From Cellulomonas hominis (GTDB lineage: Bacteria; Actinomycetota; Actinomycetes; Actinomycetales; Cellulomonadaceae), in assembly GCF_014201095.1 (NCBI RefSeq), contig NZ_JACHDN010000001.1, positions 1,364,001 to 1,428,000 on the forward strand: a DNA stretch of 64,000 nt, given 5' to 3'. The position numbers and the translations under genes are program-made. Below the pieces are notes generated by a model. It made no database searches and was not told the DNA's origin. It saw only the letters and a program-made list of their open reading frames with translations. Positions 39,106 to 56,471 of the stretch are shown here, piece after piece (within the stretch, counting starts at the first letter, position 1; each line of letters begins with the position of its first letter).

Positions 39106-39114
39106 TGACGACGG

Positions 39115-39169
39115 GGGGACGGCGCGGGGACGGCGCGGGGACGGCGCGGGGACGGCGCGGGGACGGCGC
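39115..39169. repeat. Five 11-bp tandem repeats
   Basis: GGGGACGGCGC is repeated five times without error between clpC and lacI. The period is close to one helical turn, so the copies lie on one DNA face. Confidence 0.85.
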
Positions 39170-39193
39170 CGCGACCGCGCGGAGGCGCCGGCG

Positions 39194-39211
39194 CCCTGAA
39201 TCGGTTCAGGG
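39194..39211. promoter_or_regulatory. LacI-type operator (CCCTGAA-TCGG-TTCAGGG)
   Basis: A perfect 7-bp inverted repeat with a 4-bp centre containing CG, matching the TGAAnCGnTTCA style of LacI/GalR operators. It lies 88 bp upstream of the lacI start and overlaps its probable promoter, which suggests autoregulation. Confidence 0.65.
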
Positions 39212-39298
39212 CCCCGGGGCCCGGTCTATGCTGCCGCTCAGTCCCGCGAGCGGGGGCGAGAGCCGCCCCCCGACGGCGCCGGACGCCCGGAGGAGCCC

Positions 39299-40327
39299 GT
39301 GCCGCGGACCACAGCCCCACGCCGCAGCTCGATCGGCGACGTGGCCCGACTCGCCGGCGTCTCCGTCGGCACCGTGTCCAACGTGTTGAATCGACCCGAC
39401 CGGGTCGCCCAGGCCACGCGCGACCGCGTGCTCGACGCGATCCAGCGGCTCTCGTTCGTCCCCAACGCCTCCGCCCGCCAGCTGCGCGCCGGCACGATCA
39501 CGACCGTCGGGGCGATCGTCCTCGACATCCGGAACCCGTTCTTCACGGAGGCCGCCCGCGGCGTCGAGGACCGCCTGGCGCTCGCCGACCACACCCTCAT
39601 GCTCGCGTCCAGCGACGACGACCCCGAGCGCGAGGCCCGCTACCTGCGGCTGTTCGAGGAGCACGGCGTCTCCGGCCTGCTGGTCGTCCCCACCGGCGAC
39701 GACCTCGGCCCGCTGCTCGCGCTCGCCGGCCGTGGCGTGCACACCGTGCTGCTCGACATGCCCTCCCCCACGGACGCGATCTCCTCGGTCGCGGTCGACG
39801 ACGTCGCGGGCGGGCGGATGGCGGGCGAGCACCTGCTCGACCTCGGGCACCGCGAGATCCTCATGCTCAACGGCCCGCACGCGATCCGGCAGTGCCGCGA
39901 CCGCCTCGCCGGCCTGCACCGCGCCGTGGAGCGCCGCGGCCTCGACCCCGACGTGGTCGTGCGGGAGGTCCGCATCCCGTCGCTGGACGCCGGCGGCGCG
40001 GCCACGGCGTTCGCGGCGCTGCTGGACGAGGACCCCGCGCCGCGCGCCGTGTTCTGCGTCAACGACCTCGTGGCCGTCGGGGTGCAGCGGGAGATCCGCC
40101 GGCGCCGCCCCGAGCTGCTCGGCCGGACCGCCATCGTCGGGTACGACGACATCGAGATCGCCGCCGAGCTGGCGACGCCGCTGACCTCGGTGCGGCAGCC
40201 CGCGTACGAGGTGGGCTACCGGGCGGCCGATCTGCTGCTGTCCCGGGACGCCGACGGCAACCCCGTGCGGGACCACGTGGTGTTCCAGCCGGAGCTGGTG
40301 GTGCGGTCCTCGAGCGTGCTCGCGTGA
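39299..40327 (+). CDS. LacI-family regulator; its 3' end is the insertion site of the CRISPR-Cas block
   Basis: A 342-residue regulator. The helix-turn-helix reads SIGDVARLAGVSVGTVSNVLNRPDRVAQATR, followed by LSFVPNASARQLRAG and a ligand domain ending in TAIVGYDDIEIAAELATPLTSVRQPAYEVG. GTG 39299 is the start. The last 75 bp plus 5 bp beyond the stop are repeated at 56209-56288 beyond the CRISPR-Cas locus, so this gene was probably cut and restored at its 3' end when that block arrived. Target sugar genes are not adjacent and were perhaps separated by the insertion. Confidence 0.92.
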   Translation: MPRTTAPRRSSIGDVARLAGVSVGTVSNVLNRPDRVAQATRDRVLDAIQRLSFVPNASARQLRAGTITTVGAIVLDIRNPFFTEAARGVEDRLALADHTLMLASSDDDPEREARYLRLFEEHGVSGLLVVPTGDDLGPLLALAGRGVHTVLLDMPSPTDAISSVAVDDVAGGRMAGEHLLDLGHREILMLNGPHAIRQCRDRLAGLHRAVERRGLDPDVVVREVRIPSLDAGGAATAFAALLDEDPAPRAVFCVNDLVAVGVQREIRRRRPELLGRTAIVGYDDIEIAAELATPLTSVRQPAYEVGYRAADLLLSRDADGNPVRDHVVFQPELVVRSSSVLA

Positions 40328-40332
40328 GCGGT
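40253..40332 (+). repeat. Left 80-bp direct repeat (lacI 3' end), attL-like
   Basis: Overlaps the end of lacI. It matches 56209-56288 at 79 of 80 positions; 40259-40332 and 56215-56288 are identical over 74 bp. Similarity stops abruptly on both sides. The copy encodes the C-terminal peptide DGNPVRDHVVFQPELV...SSVLA and its stop codon. Confidence 0.92.
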
Positions 40333-40429
40333 GCCCGCGCCCTGCACCGTGACGTCCCCTTAGTCCGAGCGGGCCTCTGCGTCGCCGGCGACGTCCGCGA
40401 CGGTCGCAAAGCCGCTGGACGTGACCGCT

Positions 40430-40543
40430 GAGGCGTGGCCGCGCACCTCCGTCACCGGTGCGTCGCCGTGCTCATAGCCCTACCCCCGGCTGGGACTGAA
40501 GGAGAAGCGGCCAGGGCCGGGGTATCTTCGCTGGTCAGGATGT
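40430..40543 (+). promoter_or_regulatory. Leader of CRISPR array 1
   Basis: The segment before the first repeat ends GGGTATCTTCGCTGGTCAGG-ATGT. The leader of array 2 ends GGGTATCGTCACAGGTCAGG-AAGT, so the last 24 bp are conserved with few changes, while the rest differs. It should contain the array promoter and the integration signal read by Cas1-Cas2. From 40333 to 40430 I see no gene. Confidence 0.7.
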
Positions 40544-41365
40544 GTCCGCTCCCCGCGTGCGGGGATGAGCCCGAGGCCGAGCCTGGTCGCGGGGTCACCG
40601 ACTCGTCCGCTCCCCGCGTGCGGGGATGAGCCTGACTGCCGCCACCAGCCGGTCGTAGGCAATCCGTCCGCTCCCCGCGTGCGGGGATGAGCCCGTCACG
40701 GACGCCGAGTTCGACGAAGCGCTGGAGTCCGCTCCCCGCGTGCGGGGATGAGCCCAAGATGAAGGAGCTCGGCATCTCGGCGTACGAGTCCGCTCCCCGC
40801 GTGCGGGGATGAGCCCGTCTCGCTCGGCGCGAAGTACGCATCCCGGGCAGTCCGCTCCCCGCGTGCGGGGATGAGCCCCCGATGGGCAACCTCTACCTCA
40901 CCAAGGGCGAGTCCCCTCCCCGCGTGCGGGGATGAGCCCGCGGTCGCGTTCGGCTACCGGCCGACCCGCGCGTCCGCTCCCCGCGTGCGGAGATGAGCCC
41001 GTCGTCGACATCGCGACGCAGGCGAAGTACCGGTCCGCTTCTCGCGTGCGGGGATGAGCCCTGCACCTGAACCAGGGTCAGTAGGGCGGCTGCGTCCGCT
41101 CCCCGCGTGCGGGGATGAGCCCTCGCCGCGGAGCCGTTGGCCTGCAGCGTCCATGTCCGCTCCCCGCATGCGGGGATGAGCCCGTCAGACCCGCGATGAG
41201 CCCGACCCATCCGGCGTCCGCTCCCCGCGCGCGGGGATGAGCCCGCGTAGGGCGTCATCGGCTTACCCGCAGACGAGTCCGCTCCCCGCGTGCGGGGATG
41301 AGCCTCCGCGGTCCGCCATCCCCGTGGTGTGCGACCAGTCCGCTCCCCGAGTGCGGGGATGAGCC
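40544..41365 (+). CRISPR. CRISPR array 1, type I-E, 14 repeats
   Basis: Fourteen 28-bp repeats (start GTCCGCTCCCCGCG, end GCGGGGATGAGCC) and 13 spacers of mostly 33 bp, one of 34, starting at 40544, 40605, 40666, 40727, 40788, 40850, 40911, 40972, 41033, 41094, 41155, 41216, 41277 and 41338. The first six repeats agree; many later ones carry changes (40911, 40972, 41033, 41155, 41216, 41338), which marks the right end as old and the left as leader-proximal. CCCCGC/GCGGGG forms the crRNA hairpin cut by Cas6e. Repeats differ from array 2 at positions 4-6 (CGC versus GTC). Confidence 0.97.
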
Positions 41366-41486
41366 CTACGTGTGGGACTGGGAGACGGATGACCCCAGTC
41401 GCGCGCGTCATCGCGTCGGCGGCCCGTCGGTCAACTTCCGCGTTTGCGCGACCCCACCAGGACATCCACGCGACTCTGAGCTACGG

Positions 41487-41507
41487 TATAAGCAATAGCA
41501 GACGGAG
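41487..41507 (+). promoter_or_regulatory. Possible -10 box and ribosome site of the TA pair
   Basis: TATAAG at 41487-41492 is an AT-rich hexamer unusual in this sequence and could be a -10 box; GGAG at 41504-41507 is 7 bp before ATG 41515 and supports that start. No good -35 box is seen. Confidence 0.4.
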
Positions 41508-41514
41508 CCTGACG

Positions 41515-42528
41515 ATGCTTATGCCAGACGTGTGGTCCGCACTAGCCGAGAGCCACGAGATCCTGCCCACCGCCGACTCGAGCCTTCGGGCGGACGTGGT
41601 GCTGCGTGGGCCGGCGTTCCCTGCCACGCCCTACGACGTCAGAACGGTCTCGACCCTGCACCCGTCACGCGTCCGACGGTTCGCCGACCCTGCCGGCAGC
41701 ACGCCGGAGGACCTGCCGCAGGTGCTGGTGATCACCGCGTCCGCGACGCCCGCAGCGGTCGATGCGGCACTGACGGCCCGCGTGTCCGTCCTCATCGCAC
41801 CGGAGCACGGCCCGGTCAGCGGAACGCTGATCGACAGCGACGGCCGGTCCCACACCGTGGACGCAGGCGGCGAGCGGAACTCGGCACCCGACCGCGCCCC
41901 GAGCCGCCCGGGACGCCCCGCATGGGGCACGTTCGCTCTCGCGTACACACTGCTGGGCGACCGGACCCCGCGGTCCCAGACCGCCCTGGCTCGCGAGATC
42001 GGCGTCACCCAGGCGAGGGTGTCGCAGTCGCTGACGCGGCTGCGGCTGCGTCATCTCGTCGCACAGCGCCCGTCCGGGTGGACGACGACGCACCCGAGCG
42101 CGATCGCCCACTGGCTCGCCGCGGAGTACCCGCGCCCGAGGACGGCTGCTGCATGGCTCACGTTGGACGAGCCGGTGCCCGCCACGCGGCAGATCGCCGA
42201 CCTCCTGACGCACGCCGGGGTCGCCTACGCGGTCGCCGGTCAGGTGGCAGCAGACTCGTACGCCCCCTGGTCGCGCCCGACCCGCTCGATCATCTGGACG
42301 GATCGCCTGGTCGATCTGAGCGCAGCCGGCTGCACGCCGGTGAGCGAGGCCGAAGCGTCCGTGATCATCGCGGTACCGGACGACCCGCGAGCGCTCACGC
42401 AGGCGCGCGAGCGCGACGGACTGGTCCTGGCGGACCCGTGGCGCACCTGGGTGACGCTCGTGCAGTCAGGGGACGACGCCGCAGCCGAGCACCTGCTGGT
42501 TCGGCTGCTCGCCGAGGCTGCCGCGTGA
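41515..42528 (+). CDS. HTH-domain protein, AbiEi-like antitoxin/regulator
   Basis: A 337-residue protein. The middle holds a MarR/winged-helix type DNA-binding unit (SQTALAREIGVTQARVSQSLTRLRLRHLVAQRPSGW). The C-terminal 130 residues (VPATRQIADLLTHAGVAYAVAGQVAADSYAPW...) resemble the C-terminal domain of AbiEi antitoxins, which accompany nucleotidyltransferase toxins. It overlaps that gene by 4 bp (GTGA). ATG 41515 is chosen for its GGAG site; the frame is open further upstream into array 1, where it is not credible. Placed between the old end of array 1 and cas3. The antitoxin role is inferred from architecture and partner. Confidence 0.65.
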   Translation: MLMPDVWSALAESHEILPTADSSLRADVVLRGPAFPATPYDVRTVSTLHPSRVRRFADPAGSTPEDLPQVLVITASATPAAVDAALTARVSVLIAPEHGPVSGTLIDSDGRSHTVDAGGERNSAPDRAPSRPGRPAWGTFALAYTLLGDRTPRSQTALAREIGVTQARVSQSLTRLRLRHLVAQRPSGWTTTHPSAIAHWLAAEYPRPRTAAAWLTLDEPVPATRQIADLLTHAGVAYAVAGQVAADSYAPWSRPTRSIIWTDRLVDLSAAGCTPVSEAEASVIIAVPDDPRALTQARERDGLVLADPWRTWVTLVQSGDDAAAEHLLVRLLAEAAA

Positions 42529-43274
42529 ACGCGCTCGCTCTCACCTCGGCGTCGCGCGCGACGGATGCCGGCTGGCTCGCCGCCGCGGACATCGCCTCGG
42601 TCGCAGCGCGGATGGGTGCGACCTACCGGCTCGTCGGCGGTCTCGCGGTCACGCTGCTCGTGCACCACCATGGGGCGAACGGCCTCGCCCCGCCACGCGA
42701 GACGGCGGATGCGGACATGGGCGTGCCGTTCGACGTGTGCGGCGACGAGCAGCTCGTTCCCGCGCTGCGCGCCGCTGGCTACTCGCAGACCGAGGGCAAC
42801 CGGTTCGTCCGGGAGGACGGGGACCGCGAGCTCGTGATCGACGTGCTCGCGCCGTCGTATGTGGGTCGGCTCGTGACCAACCAGCCGCACGGCGACCTCG
42901 TCGTGGACGAGATCCCGGGCCTCCACGTGGCCCTGCTCGAGCCGGCGACCGAGGTCTCGATCACGGCACGACTCACCGACGGGACCGAGATCAGCACCGC
43001 GTTGCTGCTACCGGACGTGGCGGCAGCGCTGGTCATGAAGGCGCACGCCTACCAGGGGCGACTCGCCGCGGCAGACGCAGTCGACATCCACCGCTTGCTG
43101 GAGGCCGCGAACCTCGCGGGGCGCACCACGCGGGACTGGCCGGACCGGCGGGAGGCACGCGACGCCGCGCGCATGCTGCACGCGCTGCTGGGGTCGACCC
43201 GCCGCGACCGCCACCTCGGGTCCGCCGGACCGCGGGCTCGCCTGCTGGTGAGACGGGTGGTGCCCGAGCTGTGA
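42525..43274 (+). CDS. Nucleotidyltransferase, AbiEii/MenT-like toxin candidate
   Basis: A 249-residue protein of the DNA polymerase beta-like nucleotidyltransferase superfamily. The family core is visible: YRLVGGLAVTLL (Gly38-Gly39) and, after a helix, RETADADMGV, whose Asp62 and Asp64 would bind the catalytic metal. LVMKAHAYQGRLAAADAVDIHRLL is the conserved Lys/Asp helix of AbiEii-like enzymes. Such proteins block growth by adding nucleotides to tRNA or other targets and protect against phage. GTG 42525 overlaps the partner gene's stop, so the pair is translated together. Confidence 0.72.
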   Translation: MNALALTSASRATDAGWLAAADIASVAARMGATYRLVGGLAVTLLVHHHGANGLAPPRETADADMGVPFDVCGDEQLVPALRAAGYSQTEGNRFVREDGDRELVIDVLAPSYVGRLVTNQPHGDLVVDEIPGLHVALLEPATEVSITARLTDGTEISTALLLPDVAAALVMKAHAYQGRLAAADAVDIHRLLEAANLAGRTTRDWPDRREARDAARMLHALLGSTRRDRHLGSAGPRARLLVRRVVPEL

Positions 43275-43483
43275 GAGCTCGCCGCGGAGGTCGATCGGTC
43301 CGGTTCGCCGCCTCGCGCAGGACCTAGGTCTCTTCTGATCGTCCCGTTGACAGAGTCGTCGGTCCGGCCGAGCCGCCTCAGGTGAGTGCGTCGATGGCGC
43401 TCGCCCGCCGGATCGTGGCGCCTCGGGTAGACAAGCCGGATGGGGGAGCTGGCTCAGCGACCGGTCACACGCGGTGGTGCACC
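43275..43483 (+). other. Gap before cas3
   Basis: About 210 bp between the toxin candidate and cas3. TTGACA at 43347-43352 could be a -35 box of the cas operon, but no convincing -10 box follows at the right distance. cas3 has alternative in-frame starts at 43382 (GTG) and 43394 (ATG) within this gap. Confidence 0.4.
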
Positions 43484-46360
43484 GTGCTGACGCTTGCGAC
43501 GACGTGGGCGAAATCCTGGCCCTACGACGGTGAGGTGGAGCAGTGGAGCCCGCTGTGGCGCCACCTCGACGACGCGGGCGACGTCGCCGGGCTGCTGTTC
43601 GACCGGTGGCTGCCGCCCGCCGTGCGGGACCACCTCGCCGCGGGGGCGGGTGGCGACCCCGACCGGGCGCGCCGGCTCCTCGTGTGGATCGCGGGAGTGC
43701 ACGACGTCGGCAAGGCCACGCCGGCCTTCGCGGTCCAGGTCCGACGCCTCGCCGCACGCATGGAACGGGCCGGGCTCCGGATCGGCCCGGCCGTGCAGAC
43801 CGACCGGAGCCTGCTCCGGCACGAGATCGCCGGCGCCGCGATCCTCGACCGCTGGCTCCGCGACCGCGGCGACTGGTCGCGCCGCGCGCGTCGGCAGGTC
43901 ACGGGCCTGGTCGCCGGTCACCACGGGTCGTTCCCGGAGCTGTCCCGCATCACCACCGCGCCCCGCCGGCCGGACCTGCTGGGATCGGGGCCCTGGGTCG
44001 AGGTCCAGGACGCGTTGCTGGACCGCGCCGCCGAGCGCGCGGGTGTCGACCCGGCCGACTCGTCGTGGTCCTCGCTGCTGCTCCCCCAGACGGTGCAGAT
44101 GCTCCTGGCGGGGACCGTCGTCATGGCGGACTGGATCGCCTCGGGCGACGCGTTCCCGTTGCTCGACGTCGACGACGTCCCCGCGCCCCCACCGGCCGGC
44201 GCGCCGAACCCGCGCGCGGAGGCAGGGTTGCGCGCGGTGCGGCTCGGCCGCCGTTGGGTGCCGGGGCCGCATCCGGACGACGCCGGCGAGTGGTTCCGCG
44301 CGCGGTTCCCCTGGGCGACCGCCGGACCACGACCCGTCCAGCGCGCGGTCGCCGTGCTCGCCGACGAGATGACGGCGCCCGGCCTCATGATCGTCGAGGC
44401 GCCGATGGGGGTCGGGAAGACGGAGGCGGCGTTCCTCGCGGCCGAGACGCTCGCCCGGCGCACCGGCGCGACGGGGTGCTTCGTCGCGCTCCCCACGCAG
44501 GCGACGTCGAACGCGATGTTCGGGCGGATGCTCGACTGGCTGGAGCGCGTACCCGACGAGTCGGGGGCGCACGCGCAATCCGTGGCGCTCGTCCACGGCA
44601 AGGCCGCCCTGAACGACGACCTGGCCGCCCTGCCGTTCGGCGTCGAGCTCCGGGCCCCGGTGTACGACGACACCGGACCGCACCGCGCCAGGAACGGAAC
44701 GGTCCGCCCGGCCGTCGGCGAGTGGACGCGCGGGCGCAAGCAGGCGGCGCTGAGCAGCTTCGTCGTCGGCACGATCGACCAGGTCCTGTTCGCGGCCCTG
44801 CGCGCCCGGCACACGATGCTCCGGCACCTGTCGCTCGTCGGAAAGGTCGTCGTCATCGACGAGGTGCACGCCGCCGACGTCTACATGTCCACGTTCCTGG
44901 ACCGGGCCCTCGAGTGGCTCGGCGCCTCGGGGACCCCCGTGGTCCTGATGTCCGCGACCCTGCCGGGGGCGCGCCGCGCGGACCTCTACCGGGCCTACGA
45001 GCGGGGAAGGTCCGGCGAGGCCACGACCGGGGGAACCGACGAGCTCACGGGCGACATCGGCTACCCCTGCGCGGTCGTCACCGGCGAGCACGGCCCCCGC
45101 GTGCACGCGCTGCCTCGCGGGGACGACAGCCGCACCGTCCACGTGCACCGCCTCACCGACGACCTGCCGGCGCTCGGCGACCTGCTCGCCGACCGGCTAC
45201 GTGACGGCGGCTGCGCGGTCGTGGTGCGGAACACCGTCCGCCGCGCGCAGGAGACCGCCCGGTACGTCGCGGAGATCCTGGGCGCCGACGACGTCTCCGT
45301 CGCGCACGCGGGCTTCCTCTCCGTGGACCGCGTGGCGACCGACCGCCGGTTGCTGGAGCAGTTCGGGCCACCCGGGCCCGGGGCTCTTCGGCCGCAGCGC
45401 CACGTCGTCGTCGCGACGCAGGTGGTGGAGCAGTCGCTCGACGTCGACTTCGACCTCATGGTCACCGACGTCGTCCCGGTCGACCTGCTCCTGCAGCGCC
45501 TCGGCCGCCTCCACCGGCACCGGCGCGGCACCGTCGAGTCGGACCGGCCCGCGCCGCTCCGCGAGGCGCACGCGTACGTCACCGGCGCGGACTGGTCCAC
45601 CACCCCGCCCGCGCCGGAACGCGGCACCCGGGCCGTCTACGGGACGTGGCTCCCGTGGGCCGGGCTCGCGGTGCTCGGGACGCACCTCGACGGACAGCCA
45701 CTGCGGCTACCCGACGACATCGCGCCGCTGGTGCAGGCGGCCTACGCGGACGACGTGCCCGTGCCGGACGACTGGCGAGAGCCGGCCACCACCGCGCGTG
45801 ACGAGTTCAGGCGCCGGCAGGCTGAGCGCGAGCGGGCGGCCGCCCCGTTCACGATCGCCCCGGTGCGGGCCGCCGGCACGGACCTGTACGACGGCGCCCG
45901 GTTTTCCGCCGGGGTGGTCGACGAAGACTCCCTGCAGGCACAGGGCTTCGTCCGCGACGGATCCGACTCGATCGAGGTCGTCGTCGTGCAGCGCGGGGAC
46001 GACGGGGTGGACCGCATCCCCGACTGGGTGCCCGGCGGCGGCGAGATGCTGCCGCTGCGCGCACATCCCGTGCCTCGGGACCTGGCCCGGACGCTGGCGC
46101 GGTGCACGCTGCGGCTGCCGTACGCGCTGTGCCGACCTGGTGTCGCCGAGCGGGTCATCGCGTCCCTGGAGCAGGACTACTTCGAGGGGTGGCAGCGCAC
46201 GCCGCTGCTCTCCGGACAGCTCGCCCTCGTCCTCGACGACGACCGCAGCGCCCGGCTCGCCGACCACCACCTGCACTACGACCTGACGCTCGGGCTGGTG
46301 GTGGCCGACGACCGGCCGCCCACCGATCACCTCGTGCCGAAAGCCCCGGAGGCCCCATGA
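43484..46360 (+). CDS. cas3: CRISPR-associated helicase-nuclease Cas3 (type I-E)
   Basis: Degrades target DNA marked by Cascade. The 958-residue protein starts with an HD nuclease domain: WAKSWPYD, then the metal site GVHDVGKATPAF (His73-Asp74), and VAGHHGSFPE. The superfamily 2 helicase follows: EAPMGVGKTEAA (Walker A Lys at about 312), VVIDEVHAADVYMS (DEVH at about 459), VLMSATLPGARR, and a C-terminal RecA domain with VVATQVVEQSLDVDFDLMVTD and LLQRLGRLHRH. GTG 43484 is preferred because WAKS is normally close to the N-terminus. It overlaps cas8e by 4 bp (ATGA), so all cas genes form one operon. Confidence 0.97.
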   Translation: MLTLATTWAKSWPYDGEVEQWSPLWRHLDDAGDVAGLLFDRWLPPAVRDHLAAGAGGDPDRARRLLVWIAGVHDVGKATPAFAVQVRRLAARMERAGLRIGPAVQTDRSLLRHEIAGAAILDRWLRDRGDWSRRARRQVTGLVAGHHGSFPELSRITTAPRRPDLLGSGPWVEVQDALLDRAAERAGVDPADSSWSSLLLPQTVQMLLAGTVVMADWIASGDAFPLLDVDDVPAPPPAGAPNPRAEAGLRAVRLGRRWVPGPHPDDAGEWFRARFPWATAGPRPVQRAVAVLADEMTAPGLMIVEAPMGVGKTEAAFLAAETLARRTGATGCFVALPTQATSNAMFGRMLDWLERVPDESGAHAQSVALVHGKAALNDDLAALPFGVELRAPVYDDTGPHRARNGTVRPAVGEWTRGRKQAALSSFVVGTIDQVLFAALRARHTMLRHLSLVGKVVVIDEVHAADVYMSTFLDRALEWLGASGTPVVLMSATLPGARRADLYRAYERGRSGEATTGGTDELTGDIGYPCAVVTGEHGPRVHALPRGDDSRTVHVHRLTDDLPALGDLLADRLRDGGCAVVVRNTVRRAQETARYVAEILGADDVSVAHAGFLSVDRVATDRRLLEQFGPPGPGALRPQRHVVVATQVVEQSLDVDFDLMVTDVVPVDLLLQRLGRLHRHRRGTVESDRPAPLREAHAYVTGADWSTTPPAPERGTRAVYGTWLPWAGLAVLGTHLDGQPLRLPDDIAPLVQAAYADDVPVPDDWREPATTARDEFRRRQAERERAAAPFTIAPVRAAGTDLYDGARFSAGVVDEDSLQAQGFVRDGSDSIEVVVVQRGDDGVDRIPDWVPGGGEMLPLRAHPVPRDLARTLARCTLRLPYALCRPGVAERVIASLEQDYFEGWQRTPLLSGQLALVLDDDRSARLADHHLHYDLTLGLVVADDRPPTDHLVPKAPEAP

Positions 46361-47985
46361 CCGAGCAGGCGTACTCGCTCCTCGACGAGCCCTGGATCCC
46401 GTGCCTCACGGTCGACGGAGCGACGGTCGAGGTGTCGCTGCTGGACCTGTTCCACAGGGCCCCTGACCTCCGGCGGGTCGTCGGCGACCTCCCGACCCAG
46501 GGCTTCGCCCTCCTGCGCCTCGCGCTCGCCGTGCTGCACCGCGCGGTGGACGGCCCCGCGGACGAGGACGCCTGGCACGACCTGTGGGAGGCGGGCGGCC
46601 CGCCGGTGTCGCAGATCGAGGCGTACCTGCGCGGCCACGCGGACCGGTTCGACCTGTTCCACGACAAGACGCCGTTCCTGCAGGTCGCCGGCCTGCACAC
46701 GGCAAAGGGCGAGTTCTTCGGCCTCGAGCGGCTGATCGCCGACGTGCCTGCAGGACATCGGTTCTTCTCGACGCGGGCCGGACGTGGGCTCGCGTCGATC
46801 AGCCCGGCCGAGGCCGCGCGGTGGCTGGTGCACGCGCAGGCGTACGACGTGAGCGGGATCAAGTCGCACTTCATCGGCGACCCGCGGGGCAAGGGCGGCA
46901 AGGTCTACCCGCTCGGCCTCGGGTGGGCGGGATACCTCGGAGGGATGGCCGTCGAGGGCGAGACGCTCTGGGAGACCCTGCTGCTGAACCTCGTGCCGCT
47001 GAGCCTGCCGGACCTGGTGGAGTCCGGCCCGGCGGACCGTGCGGCCTGGGAGGCCGACCCGCCCGGCCCGGAACCCTCGCCCGACGTCGCGGGACGCCCG
47101 TACGGCCCGGTGGACCTGCTCACCTGGCCGAGCCGCCGGATGCTGCTCCGCCGCGAGGGCGACGGCGTGACCGGCGTGCTCATCGGCTACGGCGACCCCC
47201 TGACCCCGCAGAACCAGCACCTGCGGGAGCCGATGACCGCCTGGCGGCGCAGCGAGGCGCAGGAGAAGAAGCTCGGCATGCCGCTCGTGTACATGCCGCT
47301 GGAGCACGACCCGAGCCGTGCTCTGTGGCGCGGGCTCGCGGCGATCCTGCCGAACGTGGCGCCGCGCGGCCGCGACGACGACAAGCCTCCGCGCGTCACC
47401 GCGGGCGTCGTCGCGTGGGCGGGTCGCGCGCTGGAGCGCCCCGCCCCGGTCACGCTGCACGCGGTCGGCATGGTCTACGGGTCGAACAACTCGGTGGTCG
47501 ACGACGTCGTGGACGACCGGCTGACCGTCCGCCTCGACCTGCTCGCCGACGGTTCGGCCGCCGCGCAGGGCATGGTCGTCGACGCGGTCGCCGCGACCGA
47601 CGCCGCGGTGCTCGCGCTGCGCAACCTCGCCTCGAACCTCGTGCGCGCTGCGGGCGGAACCGACGCCCGACTCGTCGACGGCGCCCGCGCCCGCGCCGCG
47701 GAGCAGGCGTACGGGGCGCTCGACCAGCCCTTCCGGTCCTGGCTGTCGACGCTCGGCGCCGACTCCGACGTCGATGCCGCGCGCACCGAGTGGCACGACC
47801 GCGCCCGACGCACGATCGACGGGCTGGGTCAGGCACTCGTCGACGCCGCGGGTCCGGCCGCCTGGGTCGGACGTGAAGTGTCCGGGCGGCGCGTCACCGC
47901 ACCCGAGGCGCACGCCTGGTTCCACGCGGCACTCCTCGCCGCACTCCCCCGTCCCCCGCGCACCCAGGAGGCGCCGCATGACTGA
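46357..47985 (+). CDS. cas8e: Cascade large subunit Cas8e (Cse1/CasA)
   Basis: Recognises the PAM and recruits Cas3. 542 residues beginning YSLLDEPWIPCLTVDG, the family signature, with DLPTQGFALLRLALAVLHRA, then a long middle with YPLGLGWAGYLGG and LTPQNQHLREPMTAWRRSEAQEKK, and a C-terminal helical bundle (PEAHAWFHAALL). Its length agrees with other Cse1 proteins. Overlaps cas3 by 4 bp and cse2 by 8 bp. Confidence 0.95.
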   Translation: MTEQAYSLLDEPWIPCLTVDGATVEVSLLDLFHRAPDLRRVVGDLPTQGFALLRLALAVLHRAVDGPADEDAWHDLWEAGGPPVSQIEAYLRGHADRFDLFHDKTPFLQVAGLHTAKGEFFGLERLIADVPAGHRFFSTRAGRGLASISPAEAARWLVHAQAYDVSGIKSHFIGDPRGKGGKVYPLGLGWAGYLGGMAVEGETLWETLLLNLVPLSLPDLVESGPADRAAWEADPPGPEPSPDVAGRPYGPVDLLTWPSRRMLLRREGDGVTGVLIGYGDPLTPQNQHLREPMTAWRRSEAQEKKLGMPLVYMPLEHDPSRALWRGLAAILPNVAPRGRDDDKPPRVTAGVVAWAGRALERPAPVTLHAVGMVYGSNNSVVDDVVDDRLTVRLDLLADGSAAAQGMVVDAVAATDAAVLALRNLASNLVRAAGGTDARLVDGARARAAEQAYGALDQPFRSWLSTLGADSDVDAARTEWHDRARRTIDGLGQALVDAAGPAAWVGREVSGRRVTAPEAHAWFHAALLAALPRPPRTQEAPHD

Positions 47986-48634
47986 CACCGTCACCGTCCC
48001 GGATCCTCCGGCGACGCCCGGGCACCGGGGCGGATCGGCTGCCTCGTTCGTCGTCGCGACGATCGCGCGCATCCAGTCCGGCTACCTGCGGACACCCGCC
48101 GACCCGCGGTCCCGGGCGGCGCTGGCGCAGCTGCGCCGTGGCGTCGGGCGGGAGGTCGGCTCCGTGCCGGAAATCCTGGAGCTCACGACGGACCCGGACG
48201 CCCGCGGCGGCGGCGAGGGCCCGACCCGCGACGAGCGCGCGATCCATGGCGCCCTCACGCTCTACGCGTTGCACCAGCAGTCGCAACGCCGCGGGATGTT
48301 CGTCGCCGGGGTGTCGTTCGGCACCGCTCTCGGCCGGATCAAGCAGCGAGCAGGCACCCCGGTCCCCGGTGTCATCCGGCGCTTCCAGGCCCTCGGCACG
48401 TCCTCCGACCTGACCGAGGCCCTGGTCCACGCGCGCGCCCTCGTCACGCTGCTGCGGTCGGCCGACCAGGGCTTCGACTACGGCTGGTTCACCCGCGACC
48501 TGATCCGGCTGCAGGACCCTGCGCGCGCCGACGCCGTCCGGCTGTCCTGGGGTCGCGACTTCTACCGCGTGCGTGCGGAACCGACCGACGCCGCCACCGA
48601 CCCGACCGCCAGCACCACCTCCGAGGAGCCGTGA
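47978..48634 (+). CDS. cse2: Cascade small subunit Cse2 (CasB/Cas11)
   Basis: 218 residues, nearly all helical, stabilising the R-loop as a dimer in Cascade. The conserved AAFALYALHQQS-like pattern is seen as HGALTLYALHQQSQRRGMF, and the second helical half contains DYGWFTRDLIRLQDP followed by the RLSWGRDFYR motif. ATG 47978 is inside the end of cas8e. A short Thr/Ser/Glu tail ends the protein. Confidence 0.93.
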   Translation: MTDTVTVPDPPATPGHRGGSAASFVVATIARIQSGYLRTPADPRSRAALAQLRRGVGREVGSVPEILELTTDPDARGGGEGPTRDERAIHGALTLYALHQQSQRRGMFVAGVSFGTALGRIKQRAGTPVPGVIRRFQALGTSSDLTEALVHARALVTLLRSADQGFDYGWFTRDLIRLQDPARADAVRLSWGRDFYRVRAEPTDAATDPTASTTSEEP

Positions 48635-49818
48635 TGAGCCGTACCGTCATCGACCTGCACGTCCTGCAGACCGTCCCGCCGAGCAACGTCAACCGGGACG
48701 ACACCGGGAGCCCCAAGACCGCGGTCTTCGGGGGCGTGCGCCGGGCGCGGGTGTCCTCGCAGGCGTGGAAGCGGGCGGCGCGCCTCGCCTTCTCCGACCT
48801 GCTCGACCGGGAGAACCTGGGCACCCGGACCAAGCGGATCGTCGAGGTCGTCGCGGAGCGGGTCACCGCGAGCCGCCCGGACCTGGCCGGCCGGGCGCCG
48901 TCGCTCGCCGAGGGTGTCGTGCGTGGGACCGGCATCGAGCTCGAGAAGGCGACGCGCACGCGCTCGGGCGCCGAGCCCGTCGAGGTCCAGCAGAGCAAGT
49001 ACCTGGTGTTCCTCTCCCACCTGCAGCTCGACCAGCTCGCCGCCAAGGCGGTCGAGATCGCGGACGCCCCGGACCCCGAGGCCGCGATGAAGGCCTTCAA
49101 GGGCAAGGAGGGCAAGGACCTGCTCAAGCGGGACCACTCCGTCGACCTGGCGCTGTTCGGGCGGATGGTCGCGGACGACAAGGACCTGAGCGTCGACGCA
49201 TGCGCCCAGGTCGCCCACGCCATCTCCGTGCACGGCATCGACAACGAGTTCGACTACTTCACCGCTGTCGACGACGAGAAGGGCGACGACGAGGACGCCG
49301 GCGCGGGGATGATCGGGACGGTCGAGTTCAACTCGTCGACGCTGTACCGGTACGCGACCGTCGACGTCGACCGGCTTCGGGACAACCTCGGCGACGACGA
49401 GGCAACCCGGCGGGCCGTCGAGGCGTTCATCCAGGCGTTCGTGACGTCGATGCCCACGGGCAAGCAGAACACGTTCGCGAACCGCACGCTGCCGGACGTC
49501 GTCGTCGTGACGGCGCGGGACAGCCAGTCCGTGAACCTCGTCGGCGCCTTCGAGGACCCGGTCACGGCCGAGAACGGCACGCCGCGCGCCACGGTCGCCG
49601 CCCGGCGGCTCGCACGTCGTGCCGTCGAGGTGTCCGAGGTCCTCGGGCAGCGTCCTGTCGCGACGTGGGCTCTCGCCGTCGGCGACGCCCGCACGGGGCT
49701 GGAGGACGTGTGGGACGCCGACCGCGCTGAGGACCTGCGGCTGTCCTGGACCACCCTCCCGGCGCTCGCGTCGTCCGTGGGCGACGTCGTCGCCGCGCGC
49801 GCCGGAGCACCGCGGTGA
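48634..49818 (+). CDS. cas7e: Cascade backbone subunit Cas7e (Cse4/CasC)
   Basis: Six copies coat the crRNA spacer. The 394-residue protein begins VIDLHVLQTVPPSNVNRDDTGSPKTA and GVRRARVSSQAWKRAAR, the diagnostic N-terminus with the RNA-binding strand. MPTGKQNTFANRTLPDVV is the conserved C-terminal motif. The start overlaps the cse2 stop by one base. A Glu/Asp/Lys-rich loop occurs at about residues 205-220. Overlaps cas5e by 4 bp. Confidence 0.95.
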   Translation: MSRTVIDLHVLQTVPPSNVNRDDTGSPKTAVFGGVRRARVSSQAWKRAARLAFSDLLDRENLGTRTKRIVEVVAERVTASRPDLAGRAPSLAEGVVRGTGIELEKATRTRSGAEPVEVQQSKYLVFLSHLQLDQLAAKAVEIADAPDPEAAMKAFKGKEGKDLLKRDHSVDLALFGRMVADDKDLSVDACAQVAHAISVHGIDNEFDYFTAVDDEKGDDEDAGAGMIGTVEFNSSTLYRYATVDVDRLRDNLGDDEATRRAVEAFIQAFVTSMPTGKQNTFANRTLPDVVVVTARDSQSVNLVGAFEDPVTAENGTPRATVAARRLARRAVEVSEVLGQRPVATWALAVGDARTGLEDVWDADRAEDLRLSWTTLPALASSVGDVVAARAGAPR

Positions 49819-50534
49819 CGGTGCTCGCACTCACCCTCGCCGGCCCCATGCAGGCATGGGGCAGCGGCAGTCGCTTCGCCACCCGGGCCACCGACGACGC
49901 GCCGACGAAGTCGGGGGTGATCGGCCTGCTCGCCGCGGCCCGAGGACTGCGGCGCACGGACCCGCTCGAGGACCTGCTCTCGCTCCGCTTCGGGGTGCGG
50001 ATCGACCAGCCCGGGGAGCTGCTGCGGGACTTCCAGACCGCGCGGACGCTCGACGGCGGGACGTCGATGCCGCTGTCGTACCGGTACTACCGCGCGGACG
50101 CCCGCTACGTCGTGGCGCTGGAGGCGGATCGCGCGCTGCTCGAGTCACTGGTCGACGCGCTGCGCTCCCCGGTGTTCCCGCTGTACCTGGGCCGGCGGTC
50201 CTGCCCGCCGTCCGAGCCACTCGCCCCTCGGCTGCGCGAGGCGGCCCTCGAGCAGGTGCTCATCGACGAGCCGTGGCAGGCGGCTGCCTGGTGGCGCCGG
50301 AAGCTGGACGGCGACCCGGTGGACCTGGAGTTCCGCATGGACGGCGAGGGCGGGGCGGCGCCCGGGCTCCGCGTGCTCGGCACCTCGACCCAGCGCGACG
50401 AACCGCGGTCGTTCGACCCGCAGAACCGGCAGTACGGCTGGCGCACCGTCACGCACGGGGTGATCCCGTTGCGCGCCGGTGGGCCACCCGCCGTCGCCGG
50501 ACTCGCCCACGAACCGATGACCGAGCTGGAGTGA
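49815..50534 (+). CDS. cas5e: Cascade subunit Cas5e (CasD)
   Basis: Caps the 5' handle of the crRNA. 239 residues with LTLAGPMQAWGSGSRFATRATDDAPTKSGVIGLLAAA, the invariant Cas5e N-terminus. PVFPLYLGRRSCPPSEPL is the second conserved block. Its starting GTG overlaps cas7e and its stop overlaps cas6e, both by 4 bp. Confidence 0.95.
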   Translation: MTVLALTLAGPMQAWGSGSRFATRATDDAPTKSGVIGLLAAARGLRRTDPLEDLLSLRFGVRIDQPGELLRDFQTARTLDGGTSMPLSYRYYRADARYVVALEADRALLESLVDALRSPVFPLYLGRRSCPPSEPLAPRLREAALEQVLIDEPWQAAAWWRRKLDGDPVDLEFRMDGEGGAAPGLRVLGTSTQRDEPRSFDPQNRQYGWRTVTHGVIPLRAGGPPAVAGLAHEPMTELE

Positions 50535-51229
50535 CCGCCGTGTACCTGTCCCGTCTCCAGCTGAACCCGCGCCGCCGGGGCGCACGGCGGCTGCTGAGCA
50601 GTCCGCAGCGCCTGCACGCGGCCGTGCTCGCCTCCTTCCCCACGCCGCCGACCGGGGACCGCGCGGGATCGGCCCGCGTGCTCTGGCGCCTCGACCACGA
50701 CGCCGAGCGTGTGCTGCTCTACGTCGTCAGCCCGGACGAGCCGGACTTCGCCCACCTCGCGGAGCAGGCCGGGTGGCCGACCACGGAGCGCGGGACGGTG
50801 AAGTCGTACGACAAGCTCCTCGCCCGTCTCGACGCCGGGCAGACCTGGGCGTTCCGCCTCGCGGCGAACCCCACGCGCTACGTGCGCGGCTCGGACGACT
50901 CCCGCGCGAAGCGCGTGGGGCACGTGTCGGTCGGTCACCAGGCGACGTGGCTGCGCGAGCGGTGCGAGCGGCTCGGGTTCCGCATCACCGGAACCGGACC
51001 GGAGGACCCGACGGGCGACCTGGTGGTGACCCGGCGGAACATCGCCTCGTTCGACCGCCGCGAGACGGAGATGCCGCGGTCCCGCACGGTCACGATCAGC
51101 ACAGTCCAATACGACGGGCGGCTCGAGGTCACCGACGCGGCCGCGCTGCGGCAGACTCTCGTCACCGGCATCGGCCCCGCGAAGGCCTACGGCTGCGGAC
51201 TGCTGACCCTCGCCGCGGATCGCTCGTGA
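50531..51229 (+). CDS. cas6e: CRISPR RNA endonuclease Cas6e (CasE)
   Basis: Cuts pre-crRNA at the repeat hairpin and stays in Cascade. 232 residues: YLSRLQLNPRRRGARRLLSSPQRLHAAVLASFP at the N-terminus contains the probable catalytic histidine (about residue 29), and GIGPAKAYGCGLLTLA is the C-terminal Gly-rich loop. The GTG start overlaps cas5e by 4 bp. Confidence 0.94.
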   Translation: MTAVYLSRLQLNPRRRGARRLLSSPQRLHAAVLASFPTPPTGDRAGSARVLWRLDHDAERVLLYVVSPDEPDFAHLAEQAGWPTTERGTVKSYDKLLARLDAGQTWAFRLAANPTRYVRGSDDSRAKRVGHVSVGHQATWLRERCERLGFRITGTGPEDPTGDLVVTRRNIASFDRRETEMPRSRTVTISTVQYDGRLEVTDAAALRQTLVTGIGPAKAYGCGLLTLAADRS

Positions 51230-51230
51230 C

Positions 51231-52175
51231 ATGGCGCGCATCCCGGGCACCCGCCCGCCTGAGCTCGGCGAGCTGACCCGCGCGCAGGACCGGCTGTCGT
51301 TCCTCTACCTGGAGCGCTGCGTCGTGCACCGCGAGTCCAACGCGGTGACCGCCACCGACGAACGCGGCACGGTGCACATCCCCGCCGCCTCGGTCGGGGC
51401 GCTGCTGCTCGGCCCCGGCGTCCAGATCAGCCACCACGCGATGATGTTGCTCGGCGACTGCGGCGCCACGGTGGTCTGGGTCGGGGAGCGCGGCGTGCGC
51501 TACTACGCGCACGGCCGGTCCCTGGCGCGCTCGTCCACGCTGCTGCTGGCGCAGGCCGAGCTCGTCACGCACCGTCCGTCGCGACTGAGAGTCGCCCGCG
51601 AGATGTATGCCATGCGCTTCCCCGGCGAGGACACGACCACCCTGACGATGCAGCAGCTCCGTGGACGGGAAGGGGCGCGGGTCCGCCGCTGCTACCGCGA
51701 GCAGGCTGCCCTGCACGGCATCGAGTGGAAGAACCGACGCTACGACCCCACGGACTTCGAGTCCGGCGACCCCGTCAACCAAGCTCTGTCCGCCGCGACC
51801 ACCGCGCTCTACGGGATCACCCACGCCGTCATCGTCGCGCTCGGCTGCTCCCCCGGCCTCGGCTTCGTCCATACCGGACACGTACGGTCGTTCGTCTTCG
51901 ACGTCGCCGACCTGTACAAGGCGGAGTACGCCATCCCGTGCGCCTTCGAGGTCGCGGCGCACACCTCGATGGACATCGGCGCTGAGACCAGGCGCGCGAT
52001 GCGCGACCGCTTCCGGGACGGCGCGCTGCTCGACACGTGCGCACGCGACATCCGCACTCTCCTGCTCCCGACCGACCCGCCAGAGGAGGAGCCCGACGCC
52101 GACCTGGTCCACCTCTGGGACGGGGGCGATCGTGTCGTCGCCGGTGGCACGTCCTACGCGGAGCCGGACTGGTGA
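51231..52175 (+). CDS. cas1e: CRISPR spacer integrase Cas1e
   Basis: Inserts new spacers with Cas2. 314 residues. Catalytic positions match E. coli Cas1 in spacing: Glu147 (REGARVR), His214 (GFVHTGH), Asp224 and Asp227 (FDVADLYK), against E141, H208, D218 and D221. An acidic stretch (DPPEEEPDADL) lies near the C-terminus. Begins one base after the cas6e stop codon and overlaps cas2e by 4 bp. Confidence 0.97.
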   Translation: MARIPGTRPPELGELTRAQDRLSFLYLERCVVHRESNAVTATDERGTVHIPAASVGALLLGPGVQISHHAMMLLGDCGATVVWVGERGVRYYAHGRSLARSSTLLLAQAELVTHRPSRLRVAREMYAMRFPGEDTTTLTMQQLRGREGARVRRCYREQAALHGIEWKNRRYDPTDFESGDPVNQALSAATTALYGITHAVIVALGCSPGLGFVHTGHVRSFVFDVADLYKAEYAIPCAFEVAAHTSMDIGAETRRAMRDRFRDGALLDTCARDIRTLLLPTDPPEEEPDADLVHLWDGGDRVVAGGTSYAEPDW

Positions 52176-52519
52176 TCGTCCTCGTGCTGACCGCCTGCCC
52201 GGAGGGCCTGCGCGGGCACCTCACCCGCTGGCTGATCGAGGTCTCCGCCGGGGTCTTCGTCGGGAAGGTCAGCACCCGCGTGCGTGACGAGCTCTGGGAC
52301 CGCGTGGTCGAGCTGTCCGGCCGCGGCCGCGCGGTCATGGCGCACACCGCCCGCACCGAGCAGGGGTTCGCCCTCCGCAGCCACGGGCACCACTGGGAGC
52401 CGGTCGACGTCGAAGGGCTCACGCTGATGCTCCGGCCGCACGGGGCGGAGTCGGCCGACGCGCCGGCACCGGCCGCGGGGTGGAGCAACGCCGGGCGGCG
52501 TCGGCGGATCGGACGGTAG
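52172..52519 (+). CDS. cas2e: CRISPR adaptation protein Cas2e
   Basis: Structural partner of Cas1, 115 residues. VLVLTACPEGLRGHLTRWLIEVSAGVFVG is the type I-E Cas2 N-terminus, with SARVRDELW-like VSTRVRDELWDRV and SHGHHWEPVDVEGLTLM following. A 25-residue Ala/Pro/Arg tail ends the protein. Array 2 begins 120 bp downstream, the usual place for an active leader. Confidence 0.95.
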   Translation: MIVLVLTACPEGLRGHLTRWLIEVSAGVFVGKVSTRVRDELWDRVVELSGRGRAVMAHTARTEQGFALRSHGHHWEPVDVEGLTLMLRPHGAESADAPAPAAGWSNAGRRRRIGR

Positions 52520-52639
52520 CGGCACAGGTTCATCAGCGCTGATCGTCGCGCCCAGCGGCGGGCGCGACAGCCCTCTGCGAGGGTGCGCGGAGTGAAGTGA
52601 AAACGCACGTCGAGCGGGTATCGTCACAGGTCAGGAAGT
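52520..52639 (+). promoter_or_regulatory. Leader of CRISPR array 2
   Basis: The segment between cas2e and the first repeat. It contains a relatively AT-rich patch (GTGAAGTGAAAACGCAC) and ends GGGTATCGTCACAGGTCAGG-AAGT, matching the end of leader 1. Expected to hold the array promoter and the Cas1-Cas2 integration signal. Confidence 0.75.
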
Positions 52640-55600
52640 GTCGTCTCCCCGCGTGCGGGGATGAGCCCGTGTGGTCCAAGGCGATCGGCCCGGCCCCGAA
52701 GTCGTCTCCCCGCGTGCGGGGATGAGCCGGGCTCGGGCACGGACGAGGCGACGCTGATCTCGTCGTCTCCCCGCGTGCGGGGATGAGCCCCGCCACGCCG
52801 CCGGCGACCTGGAGGCCGCTGAGTCGTCTCCCCGCGTGCGGGGATGAGCCGTCCGCGAACTTCTTCACCGCCAGCGTCGCGAGGTCGTCTCCCCGCGTGC
52901 GGGGATGAGCCCGCGTACGTCACCGAGCCACCAGGGGGGATCGGGTCGTCTCCCCGCGTGCGGGGATGAGCCCTACTGGGCCGTCGCGGGCGCCGGGAAC
53001 GGCGAGTCGTCTCCCCGCGTGCGGGGATGAGCCGGGTAGGGCAGGCCGCTCGTCATGCGGCCGCCGGTCGTCTCCCCGCGTGCGGGGATGAGCCGGCCGG
53101 GTGCGCGTGCGGGTGCCTCACGAAGCCGTCGTCTCCCCGCGTGCGGGGATGAGCCCGTGCCGGACTTCCCGAGGGGGTGACGGGTTGCGTCGTCTCCCCG
53201 CGTGCGGGGATGAGCCGCCGGGTCGAGCGTGCGGACGTACCCGGGGTTCGTCGTCTCCCCGCGTGCGGGGATGAGCCCCTGCTGATCCCGGCGGCGGAGA
53301 AGGCCGGGGAGTCGTCTCCCCGCGTGCGGGGATGAGCCCGCATCCGCTCGCCCACCGAGTCCTCACCCGGCGTCGTCTCCCCGCGTGCGGGGATGAGCCC
53401 GGCGTGCGCGTCGAGGGGGTGGAGTCGTGATGGTCGTCTCCCCGCGTGCGGGGATGAGCCGGCGGGGGGTCCCTCGGGGGGGTACGGAAGCCTGTCGTCT
53501 CCCCGCGTGCGGGGATGAGCCCCGGGACGCAGGGTTGAACACCGCAGCCGTGAAGTCGTCTCCCCGCGTGCGGGGATGAGCCGGCGCTCGGGGACATCCT
53601 GGGTGACCTCCTGTGGTCGTCTCCCCGCGTGCGGGGATGAGCCGCCGCTCGATCTCCTTCGTCGCCATCGACGTGAGTCGTCTCCCCGCGTGCGGGGATG
53701 AGCCCCAGCGGCTGGCCGCCGCTGGTGAGACGCCCGTGTCGTCTCCCCGCGTGCGGGGATGAGCCCATGGGCCTCGTGTCGCAGGCTACCGCGGGCCGGT
53801 CGTCTCCCCGCGTGCGGGGATGAGCCCTCGCGAAGCGACTCACGAACTGAGGAGAGCCAGTCGTCTCCCCGCGTGCGGGGATGAGCCCTGGGCCTGCGCC
53901 TCCTTCGACTGCGGGGTGAGGTCGTCTCCCCGCGTGCGGGGATGAGCCGTCGATCTCCGGGCCGCCCTGCACCTGCGACAAGTCGTCTCCCCGCGTGCGG
54001 GGATGAGCCCGTGAAGGACTACGGCGCGAAGGGCGACGGGGCGTCGTCTCCCCGCGTGCGGGGATGAGCCCTCCCCGCCGACGTACACGACGCCATCGAG
54101 GTCGTCGTCTCCCCGCGTGCGGGGATGAGCCCTGCTCAAGGTCGCCCTTCAGGTTGTCCATCTTGTCGTCTCCCCGCGTGCGGGGATGAGCCCCGGCGCC
54201 TGATCGCGGCGCTAGTGCCGCAGACGTCGTCTCCCCGCGTGCGGGGATGAGCCCAGGCCCCGCCCGATGAACGGGTGCCCCTCCGGGTCGTCTCCCCGCG
54301 TGCGGGGATGAGCCGTACCTGATCCTGGCGAACATCGGACTCACGTCGTCGTCTCCCCGCGTGCGGGGATGAGCCCAACTACATCGTCACGGGCAACGAC
54401 TTCACGAAGTCGTCTCCCCGCGTGCGGGGATGAGCCCCCCGCCGGCACCGTGATCGTCTGGGTGACGATGTCGTCTCCCCGCGTGCGGGGATGAGCCCGC
54501 GCCCAGCAGGCCAACGAGATCGACCAGCTCGTCGTCTCCCCGCGTGCGGGGATGAGCCCGTGATCGCGTGGGCGTCGGGCCACACGCACACGTCGTCTCC
54601 CCGCGTGCGGGGATGAGCCCTCCTGCAGGCGCTGGCCCACCGACGCGAGCTCGTCGTCTCCCCGCGTGCGGGGATGAGCCCACGCTCGCGACCGGGGAGT
54701 ACATCGACATCGCGTCGTCTCCCCGCGTGCGGGGATGAGCCGGTGCGCGTCGGCTCGGTCGCGCCCTTGAGGTCGTCGTCTCCCCGCGTGCGGGGATGAG
54801 CCCGTGTTGATCCGGTCCTCGATCATCGCCAGGTCGTCGTCTCCCCGCGTGCGGGGATGAGCCCCGCCGACTCCGCGCTCACAGGTTGAGCTCCCACGTC
54901 GTCTCCCCGCGTGCGGGGATGAGCCCAGCCTCGCATGGGCAGCGGCGAACCCGTCCAAGTCGTCTCCCCGCGTGCGGGGATGAGCCCCCTTTCACCCGGA
55001 AGGACTCCGTCCGCGGTTCGTCGTCTCCCCGCGTGCGGGGATGAGCCCCTCGTGACGGTCCGCGCGGAGGAGCGCATCGCGTCGTCTCCCCGCGTGCGGG
55101 GATGAGCCCACCGCGAGGAACTTCAGCTCGCGGCCGTTCAGGTCGTCTCCCCGCGTGCGGGGATGAGCCCTGCTGCGCGGTCTCGATGAACCGGTCACGG
55201 GTGTCGTCTCCCCGCGTGCGGGGATGAGCCCTTGGGTCGCACGGTGACCGCGAGTTCGCCCGGGTCGTCTCCCCGCGTGCGGGGATGAGCCCCCGGTCAC
55301 CTCGCTCAACGCCGGGAAGATCACGTCGTCTCCCCGCGTGCGGGGATGAGCCCTGGTCCATCTGCCCGAGGAACGTGTCGTACGTGTCGTCTCCCCGCGT
55401 GCGGGGATGAGCCCGTCTTCACCGCCAGCACGGCGACGCCGGTCAGGTCGTCTCCCCGCGTGCGGGGATGAGCCCGTCGGTGCGGTCATCGCCCCGTACG
55501 CGGGAGTGTCGTCTCCCCGCGTGCGGGGATGAGCCCGACGCCGAGATGCCCACCGGCAGCAGTCGGCGGTCGTCTCCCCGCGTGCGGGGATGAGCCCCTC

Positions 55601-56207
55601 GGGGCGATCTCGATCGACCGGGTCCGGGTGTCGTCTCCCCGCGTGCGGGGATGAGCCCGACGCCGAGATGCCCACCGGCAGCAGTCGGCGGTCGTCTCCC
55701 CGCGTGCGGGGATGAGCCGGCATGAGCGTCGTCAAGTGGATCCTGCTGGGCGTCGTCTCCCCGCGTGCGGGGATGAGCCCCTGGCCAAGCTGCGCGCCCT
55801 GTTCACGAAGAAGTCGTCTCCCCGCGTGCGGGGATGAGCCCCGAAAATCGTCGCCATCGCCGCGTTGCGCTGCGTCGTCTCCCCGCGTGCGGGGATGAGC
55901 CCAGCGACAGCGAAGTGCTCGTTGCGGGCACTCCGTCGTCTCCCCGCGTGCGGGGATGAGCCCTCGGACGTGCGCAGATCGGCGTGCGAGCCGCGGTCGT
56001 CTCCCCGCGTGCGGGGATGAGCCCGTCGTGGTGCCGGGGCCATCTGTCCAGCATCGGTCGTCTCCCCGCGTGCGGGGATGAGCCCCCGAACCCGGACCCG
56101 AGCACACCGTTGCCGGCGGTCGTCTCCCCGCGTGCGGGGATGAGCCCTCCCTGGTCCCCGCGAAGACCCTCCCGGTCACGTCGTCTCCCCGCGTGCGGGG
56201 AGGAGCC
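52640..56207 (+). CRISPR. CRISPR array 2, type I-E, 59 repeats
   Basis: Fifty-nine 28-bp repeats (start GTCGTCTCCCCGCG, end GCGGGGATGAGCC) and 58 spacers, with a period of 61 bp and two 34-bp spacers (before 54898 and before 56119). All repeats I read are identical except the last (56180), which has GGAGGAGCC at its end. Spacer 48 (55536-55568) and spacer 50 (55658-55690) are the same. Spacers look protein-coding and phage-like, but no match can be made here. The array ends one base before the right direct repeat. Uniform repeats and length suggest it is the active array. Confidence 0.98.
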
Positions 56208-56208
56208 G

Positions 56209-56288
56209 GACGGGAACCCCGTGCGGGACCACGTGGTGTTCCAGCCGGAGCTGGTGGTGCGGTCCTCGAGCGTGCTCGCGTGAGCGGT
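56209..56288 (+). repeat. Right 80-bp direct repeat (lacI 3' remnant), attR-like
   Basis: Copy of the last codons, stop and 5 further bases of lacI (compare 40253-40332), with one difference. No start or upstream part of the gene is present, so it is a remnant. The lacI downstream flank presumably continues after 56288. Confidence 0.92.
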
Positions 56289-56299
56289 CGCGTGCGACC
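56286..56299 (+). terminator. Small hairpin after the lacI remnant
   Basis: GGTCGC-GT-GCGACC starts in the last bases of the direct repeat. It is present only beyond the right copy, so it was probably the original terminator of lacI before the insertion. Confidence 0.5.
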
Positions 56300-56471
56300 G
56301 GCCGGGTGAAGCGGGGCCTGCACTCGGCGCTCCGGTGTCACCCGCACCGCCCCTCCGCCGTCCCCCGTTCGGGTCGTTCCGCCTCTTAACCGGTTTATCA
56401 CCCGCCCCAGCGCCGATCGGAACGGCGGAGCGCCGCCGCACGAGCGGTGCCGGAGCCCAAGGAGCGGGTCG

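Follow-up and report, generated by a model that had tools for sequence, protein, structure and literature searches.

A complete type I-E CRISPR-Cas block is very probably inserted at the 3' end of a lacI-family regulator gene, judging from sequence comparison, and lies between two direct copies of that gene end. It may have entered on a foreign piece of DNA carrying a lacI end together with the CRISPR-Cas genes, by homologous recombination at lacI and an illegitimate joint at the array end, an explanation to which we give close to an even chance. The window (the whole stretch of DNA analysed, 64,000 nucleotides) corresponds to positions 1364001-1428000 within one 4.49-Mb contig. Positions below are those of the window unless noted, and the genes, arrays and repeat copies of the locus are on the forward (+) strand.

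The direct repeat

The lacI-family gene (39299-40327) is intact and encodes 342 aa, with Pfam LacI and Peripla_BP_3 matches above cut-off. Its orthologs in the genus genomes G017 and G095 are 93% identical in protein sequence, and the best identity in a search of named records was 86%, the window's own record possibly being left out there. The final 75 bp of the gene, stop included, and the following 5 bp form the left repeat copy (40253-40332), which recurs in direct orientation at an offset of 15956 as the right copy (56209-56288), with 79 of 80 bases equal. The sole mismatch is C at 40258 vs G at 56214, and the exact core measures 74 bp (40259-40332 in left-copy coordinates). Just outside both copies, identity drops at once to background. 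In a k-mer screen of the window, limited to 18-mers found exactly twice and spaced 3-40 kb, this 74-bp core was the longest exact direct repeat reported. The original observation of a lacI 3' end repeated 16 kb away is confirmed at 79/80 with the 74-bp exact core. Its wording, "the last 75 bp and stop", holds for the duplicated tail but not for a separate stop, since the 75 bp already include it. An 11-bp tandem repeat (GACGGCGCGGG) is present at 39096-39183, between clpC and lacI.

The CRISPR-Cas block

Array 1, two ORFs, an eight-gene type I-E cas operon and array 2 are enclosed between the repeat copies; PADLOC, Pfam and array mapping bear out the earlier statement that both arrays and all cas genes lie within the lacI repeats. 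The left insert end (40333-40543) is 211 bp long, and its last ~50 bp are read as the array-1 leader, since on visual comparison they look like the leader of array 2. A search of these 211 bp for a remnant of cas2 or for another gene gave chance-level matches only (best E 0.027). Array 1 (40544-41366) comprises 14 repeats of the GTCCGC type, six of them with altered letters. It is followed by two adjacent ORFs of 378 and 192 aa (41392-43100; individually 41392-42528 and 42525-43100), whose family was not recognised with Pfam, NCBIfam, PADLOC or PHROGs. The 378-aa ORF gave only sub-cut-off helix-turn-helix matches (Pfam, NCBIfam), the 192-aa ORF gave no family match in the four libraries scanned, and neither had a PADLOC or PHROGs match. 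The toxin-antitoxin pair announced for this place corresponds to these two ORFs, and the label is unproven, having only the sub-cut-off helix-turn-helix matches behind it.

The operon cas3-cas8e-cas11e-cas7e-cas5e-cas6e-cas1e-cas2e (about 43457-52519) was identified with PADLOC models for all eight genes and with Pfam for the four scanned. The array-2 leader (52520-52639) extends from the cas2 stop to the first repeat, and array 2 (52640-56208) has 59 GTCGTC-type repeats, of which the last alone is altered within its first 28 letters. The assignment to type I-E is based on the presence of cas3, cas8e, cas11e, cas7e, cas5e, cas6e, cas1e and cas2e in a single operon, and on 29-nt repeats and 32-nt spacers at a 61-base period (few 62) in both arrays, with an array adjoining cas2. 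The repeat starts differ between the arrays (GTCCGC in array 1, GTCGTC in array 2); the GTCCGC type is also found in genome G102, and the GTCGTC type in G008 and, with another loop, in G099. The locus may be a mix of two array lineages. Within array 2, an identical spacer occurs at 55537-55568 and 55659-55690, two units apart. Four phage matches examined yielded no consistent PAM.

Comparison with related genomes

A close cas1 (E <= 1e-30) was found in 7 of 81 genus genomes, the present one included. It is absent from all 12 of the relatives closest to the present genome in the flanking HAD protein (78-85% identity), whose HAD-gene stretches hold no cas gene at E <= 1e-15. The six other cas1 carriers have a HAD match at 57-62% identity (three genomes) or none at threshold (three genomes). 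Among the 12 nearest relatives, clpC lies on the HAD-gene stretch in nine, seven of which have an MCP gene between clpC and HAD; a close lacI ortholog at the HAD locus is found in G017 and G095 only. The gene order in G017 is clpC, rhamnosidase, lacI, a gene 3' of lacI named lipoprotein-like by eye, and HAD; that in G095, with overlapping contig ends merged, is a rhamnosidase-like gene, lacI, a lipoprotein-like gene and HAD, and cas genes are absent from both. Two lacI tails seen in G095 were set aside as a single site split by assembly, the contig ends overlapping by 127 identical bases. In G089 the order is clpC, MCP, MCP, HAD, with no close lacI and no cas between.

Both flanks of the block therefore have block-free counterparts, lacI in G017 and G095 and clpC-MCP without lacI in G089. 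The block is read as an insertion because cas1 is absent from all 12 nearest relatives and because lacI stands without the block in G017 and G095. Insertion at lacI, as first proposed, is the most likely reading; none of the relatives examined has the predicted empty junction, in which 56289 would follow the lacI end immediately, and the check suggested earlier comes out only half as expected. The MCP gene (56472-58109), whose product we take to be a methyl-accepting chemotaxis protein, belongs to the host backbone and has an 85% identical ortholog adjoining clpC in G089. The stretch 5' of it (56289-56471), read as native, matches G089 clearly from 56360 on and weakly before; a search of the right flank in the 81 genus genomes returned G089 and one weak match.

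The right flank and the sequence after the left copy were each compared with the post-lacI sequences of G017 and G095 and with the pre-MCP stretch of G089. The score of the right flank was reached by 11, 7 and 18 of 500 shuffles, respectively, and that of the sequence after the left copy by 249, 495 and 436 of 500. This polarity test covers 50-72 bases at and after the copy end, with rough shuffling in blocks of two bases. In the post-lacI stretch G017 and G095 are themselves unlike each other (201/500 shuffles). Because the sequence past the right copy, and not that past the left, weakly resembles the native flanks of relatives, these shuffle comparisons hint that the right copy is the native lacI end and that the left tail is the newcomer's or was copied with the newcomer.

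The clpC-HAD interval (38978-60493) varies in most close relatives, containing MCP genes, DUF488, the lipoprotein-like gene, lacI or rhamnosidase; it appears to be a hotspot where genes are gained and lost. An alpha-L-rhamnosidase gene (Pfam; L031 6955-9285) lies beside lacI in G017, and a similar gene in G095. It is absent from the window between clpC and lacI (38979-39298), and the lacI product of the window may therefore be an orphan regulator.

Proposed route of insertion

In the explanation that we hold at nearly even confidence, the incoming DNA would have had a lacI 3' end on its left and the distal end of array 2 on its right. Its left side would have been placed by homologous recombination in lacI, so that the intact left gene would end in the newcomer's tail. 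Its right side would have been joined illegitimately to the lacI end, either directly or when the ends of the piece closed into a circle, which then entered by one crossover within ~80 bp. The right copy would then be the tail of the recipient's own lacI, left in place. An integrase would be unnecessary, and the length of the repeat would be fixed by the position of the illegitimate joint. The locus has the form of a gene-end duplication in which part of the gene end is repeated and the truncated copy borders immediately on foreign DNA, and Ku is encoded in the genome. Homologous recombination had been offered originally as one option; it fits the evidence, and an integrase is not required.

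Since the tails differ at only 1 of 80 bases, the donor tail would come from a near-identical lacI, and the donor would be close to the present strain. A donor with CRISPR-Cas beside lacI was not found in the 81 genus genomes, where the left insert end also had no strong match besides itself, only three weak ones. A Cas8e search of 396 genomes of the order, a set that appears without the genus cas1 carriers (presumably not drawn), gave 10 matches including the present genome, the others being at most 51% identical. The best plasmid Cas1 match was 67% (Nocardia farcinica record). Counting against homologous recombination with an illegitimate joint, the lipoprotein-like gene follows lacI in G017 and G095, where the sequence from 56289 would be expected, and the origin of CRISPR beside lacI in the donor is left unexplained.

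The right joint

The right copy starts at the base directly after the last 29-nt repeat of array 2 (56180-56208), at spacer position 1, with no DNA between. GCC stands immediately before the joint in both parents, and two changes, at 56202 and 56214, lie at most 7 bp from it. The last repeat is the sole altered one among 59. Of the comparison arrays, only that of G099 continues into altered repeats; in G008 and G102 the final repeat is unaltered and has no degenerate one close by. The proposal that array 2 was cut at the joint was dropped, as two of the three comparison arrays end unaltered and alteration of the last repeat alone agrees with a natural end; a natural end is as likely as a cut. 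In R. toxicus, the repeats near the oldest spacers are described as degenerate (excerpt of PMC6113626). By our own estimate a chance break would fall on a repeat/spacer boundary in about 1 in 61 cases, and the position of the joint may be due to chance or may have been guided by the GCC common to both parents.

Three other accounts bear on this joint. The Cas1-Cas2 integrase could itself have linked the distal repeat of the array to the end of lacI, a casposon-like settling of the whole CRISPR-Cas locus at a gene end; we regard this as very unlikely, the suggestion coming solely from the boundary, with the right copy beginning precisely at spacer position 1 of what looks like a natural array end. 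Alternatively, the last spacer of array 2 could derive from lacI, homologous recombination through the 32-nt spacer having given the right junction. The start at spacer position 1 would be explained, and the letter at 56214 is that of the G095 lacI, but the last repeat ends in G whereas the base preceding the same stretch in lacI is C, the phage matches show no consistent PAM, and 32 nt is short for recombination, which makes this origin very improbable. Finally, a larger duplication including lacI may have come first, and a later deletion, reaching to the array end, may have removed the greater part of its second copy. The left edge of the right copy is defined only by its junction with the array, and this copy may once have been longer; however, a repeat screen of 38000-60000 showed no other duplication of comparable strength apart from the arrays, nor did the flank comparison, and such a history is hardly to be expected.

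A further possibility is the capture of a CRISPR-Cas fragment at a staggered double-strand break. In this mechanism the lacI tail is nicked at two points 80 nt apart, the ends are filled in, and the foreign fragment is attached by Ku-dependent joining, which leaves a long target duplication. Such capture would give the repeat in one step with no need for a lacI-bearing donor, Ku is present, and the two changes near the right joint fit it. It demands, however, two nicks at that spacing and an unprotected 16-kb fragment, and although no present evidence separates it from recombination at lacI with an illegitimate joint, we consider it improbable.

Search for a recombinase and an attachment site

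The repeat copies would also be accounted for if the block were a site-specific genomic island, moved by a tyrosine integrase that was lost or acted in trans, with recombination between an attP containing the lacI end and an attB in lacI; the copies would then be attL and attR. Direct repeats flanking the block at the 3' end of an intact lacI (79/80) agree with this, though other mechanisms predict repeats too, and in V. albensis a known island site is reported to hold a CRISPR-Cas region for which no integrase was identified (excerpt of PMC6360697). Six-frame scans of the whole genome (E <= 0.001) gave four PF00589 and five PF00239 matches. The four tyrosine-recombinase matches lie elsewhere in the genome, and no tyrosine or serine recombinase match falls within the block (contig positions 1404333-1420288), in agreement with the original view that it encodes no integrase. 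The ten annotated genes of the block matched Cas families, gave a sub-cut-off match, or gave nothing. A 528-aa ORF (L246 1393-2979) carrying a serine-recombinase domain lies ~19 kb upstream of the window start and was rejected as the mover of the block, as it is not next to it. Serine integrases leave short common cores, unlike the 80 bp here.

Reuse of the site by other elements was not seen. A screen of the other 80 genus genomes, which scored 11 candidate places in each and would miss diverged tails, gave weak partial matches but no second full lacI tail. Other insertions at the same lacI codon, as suggested earlier, are likewise absent from the genus genomes by this measure. Long exact flanking repeats were also absent from the four other cas loci with both flanks (G099, G008, G102 and G004); the contigs of G012 and G084 end just after cas2 and soon after, respectively, and are not real tests. 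Outside the arrays, only three short repeats were found, in G004, all on one side of the cas operon. A finer flank comparison, which covered three of the six other cas loci, gave only weak matches at these three closest loci, with a best E of 7e-6 vs 3e-35 here. Site-specific insertion by a recombinase is unsupported by these results, with none in the block, no recurring site and no long exact repeats at the four other loci, and we regard the island reading as doubtful.

Comparison with known systems

The arrangement resembles that of E. coli recombinants obtained by conjugation, where the insert lies between gene-end direct repeats, foreign DNA adjoins the truncated copy and no integrase is involved (excerpt of PMC3240628). 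In that study, the PCR product that marks a duplicated homologous gene end came up in 56 of 60 clones, and the duplications measured 109-950 bp in 14 sequenced clones. Amarir-Bouhram and colleagues attribute the duplications, found in most of their selected recombinants, to a circle from which part of the gene end was missing and which recombined by a single crossover (PMC3240628, as excerpted). The E. coli system differs in using a laboratory plasmid and lacZ, with duplications of 109-950 bp, whereas the present case is natural, with 80 bp in lacI and a 16-kb CRISPR-Cas insert (same excerpt).

In V. cholerae, a type I-E CRISPR-Cas system is located on island GI-24, and V. albensis has at the same location a region of 12 kb with no identified integrase, according to the part of PMC6360697 available. 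Like GI-24 and the other Vibrionaceae CRISPR-Cas islands described there, the present block is a complete I-E system at one chromosomal site that is absent from related strains. GI-24 has an integrase and attachment sites, whereas the present block has no recombinase and its site is the 3' end of lacI (PMC6360697, in part).

Homology-facilitated illegitimate recombination was proposed for the displacement of T6SS effectors in V. cholerae, a process that works without an integrase as proposed (excerpt of PMC5361080). The likeness consists in one homologous anchor and one illegitimate joint, with older recipient sequence staying downstream; the V. cholerae case concerns effector-immunity modules and the present one CRISPR-Cas (PMC5361080, as far as excerpted).

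Significance

A literature search on CRISPR-Cas and Cellulomonas gave, among the matches listed, no title about the present locus. The locus shows an acquisition of CRISPR-Cas that can still be read, and does not amount to a new type of mobile element. In our judgement, CRISPR-Cas loci are gained and lost among related bacteria, but the joints of a single acquisition are seldom readable. Here both joints, and the lacI end presumed to be native, can still be seen. Through the 74-bp perfect repeat, the living strain also allows a direct test of whether the block is lost by ordinary recombination.
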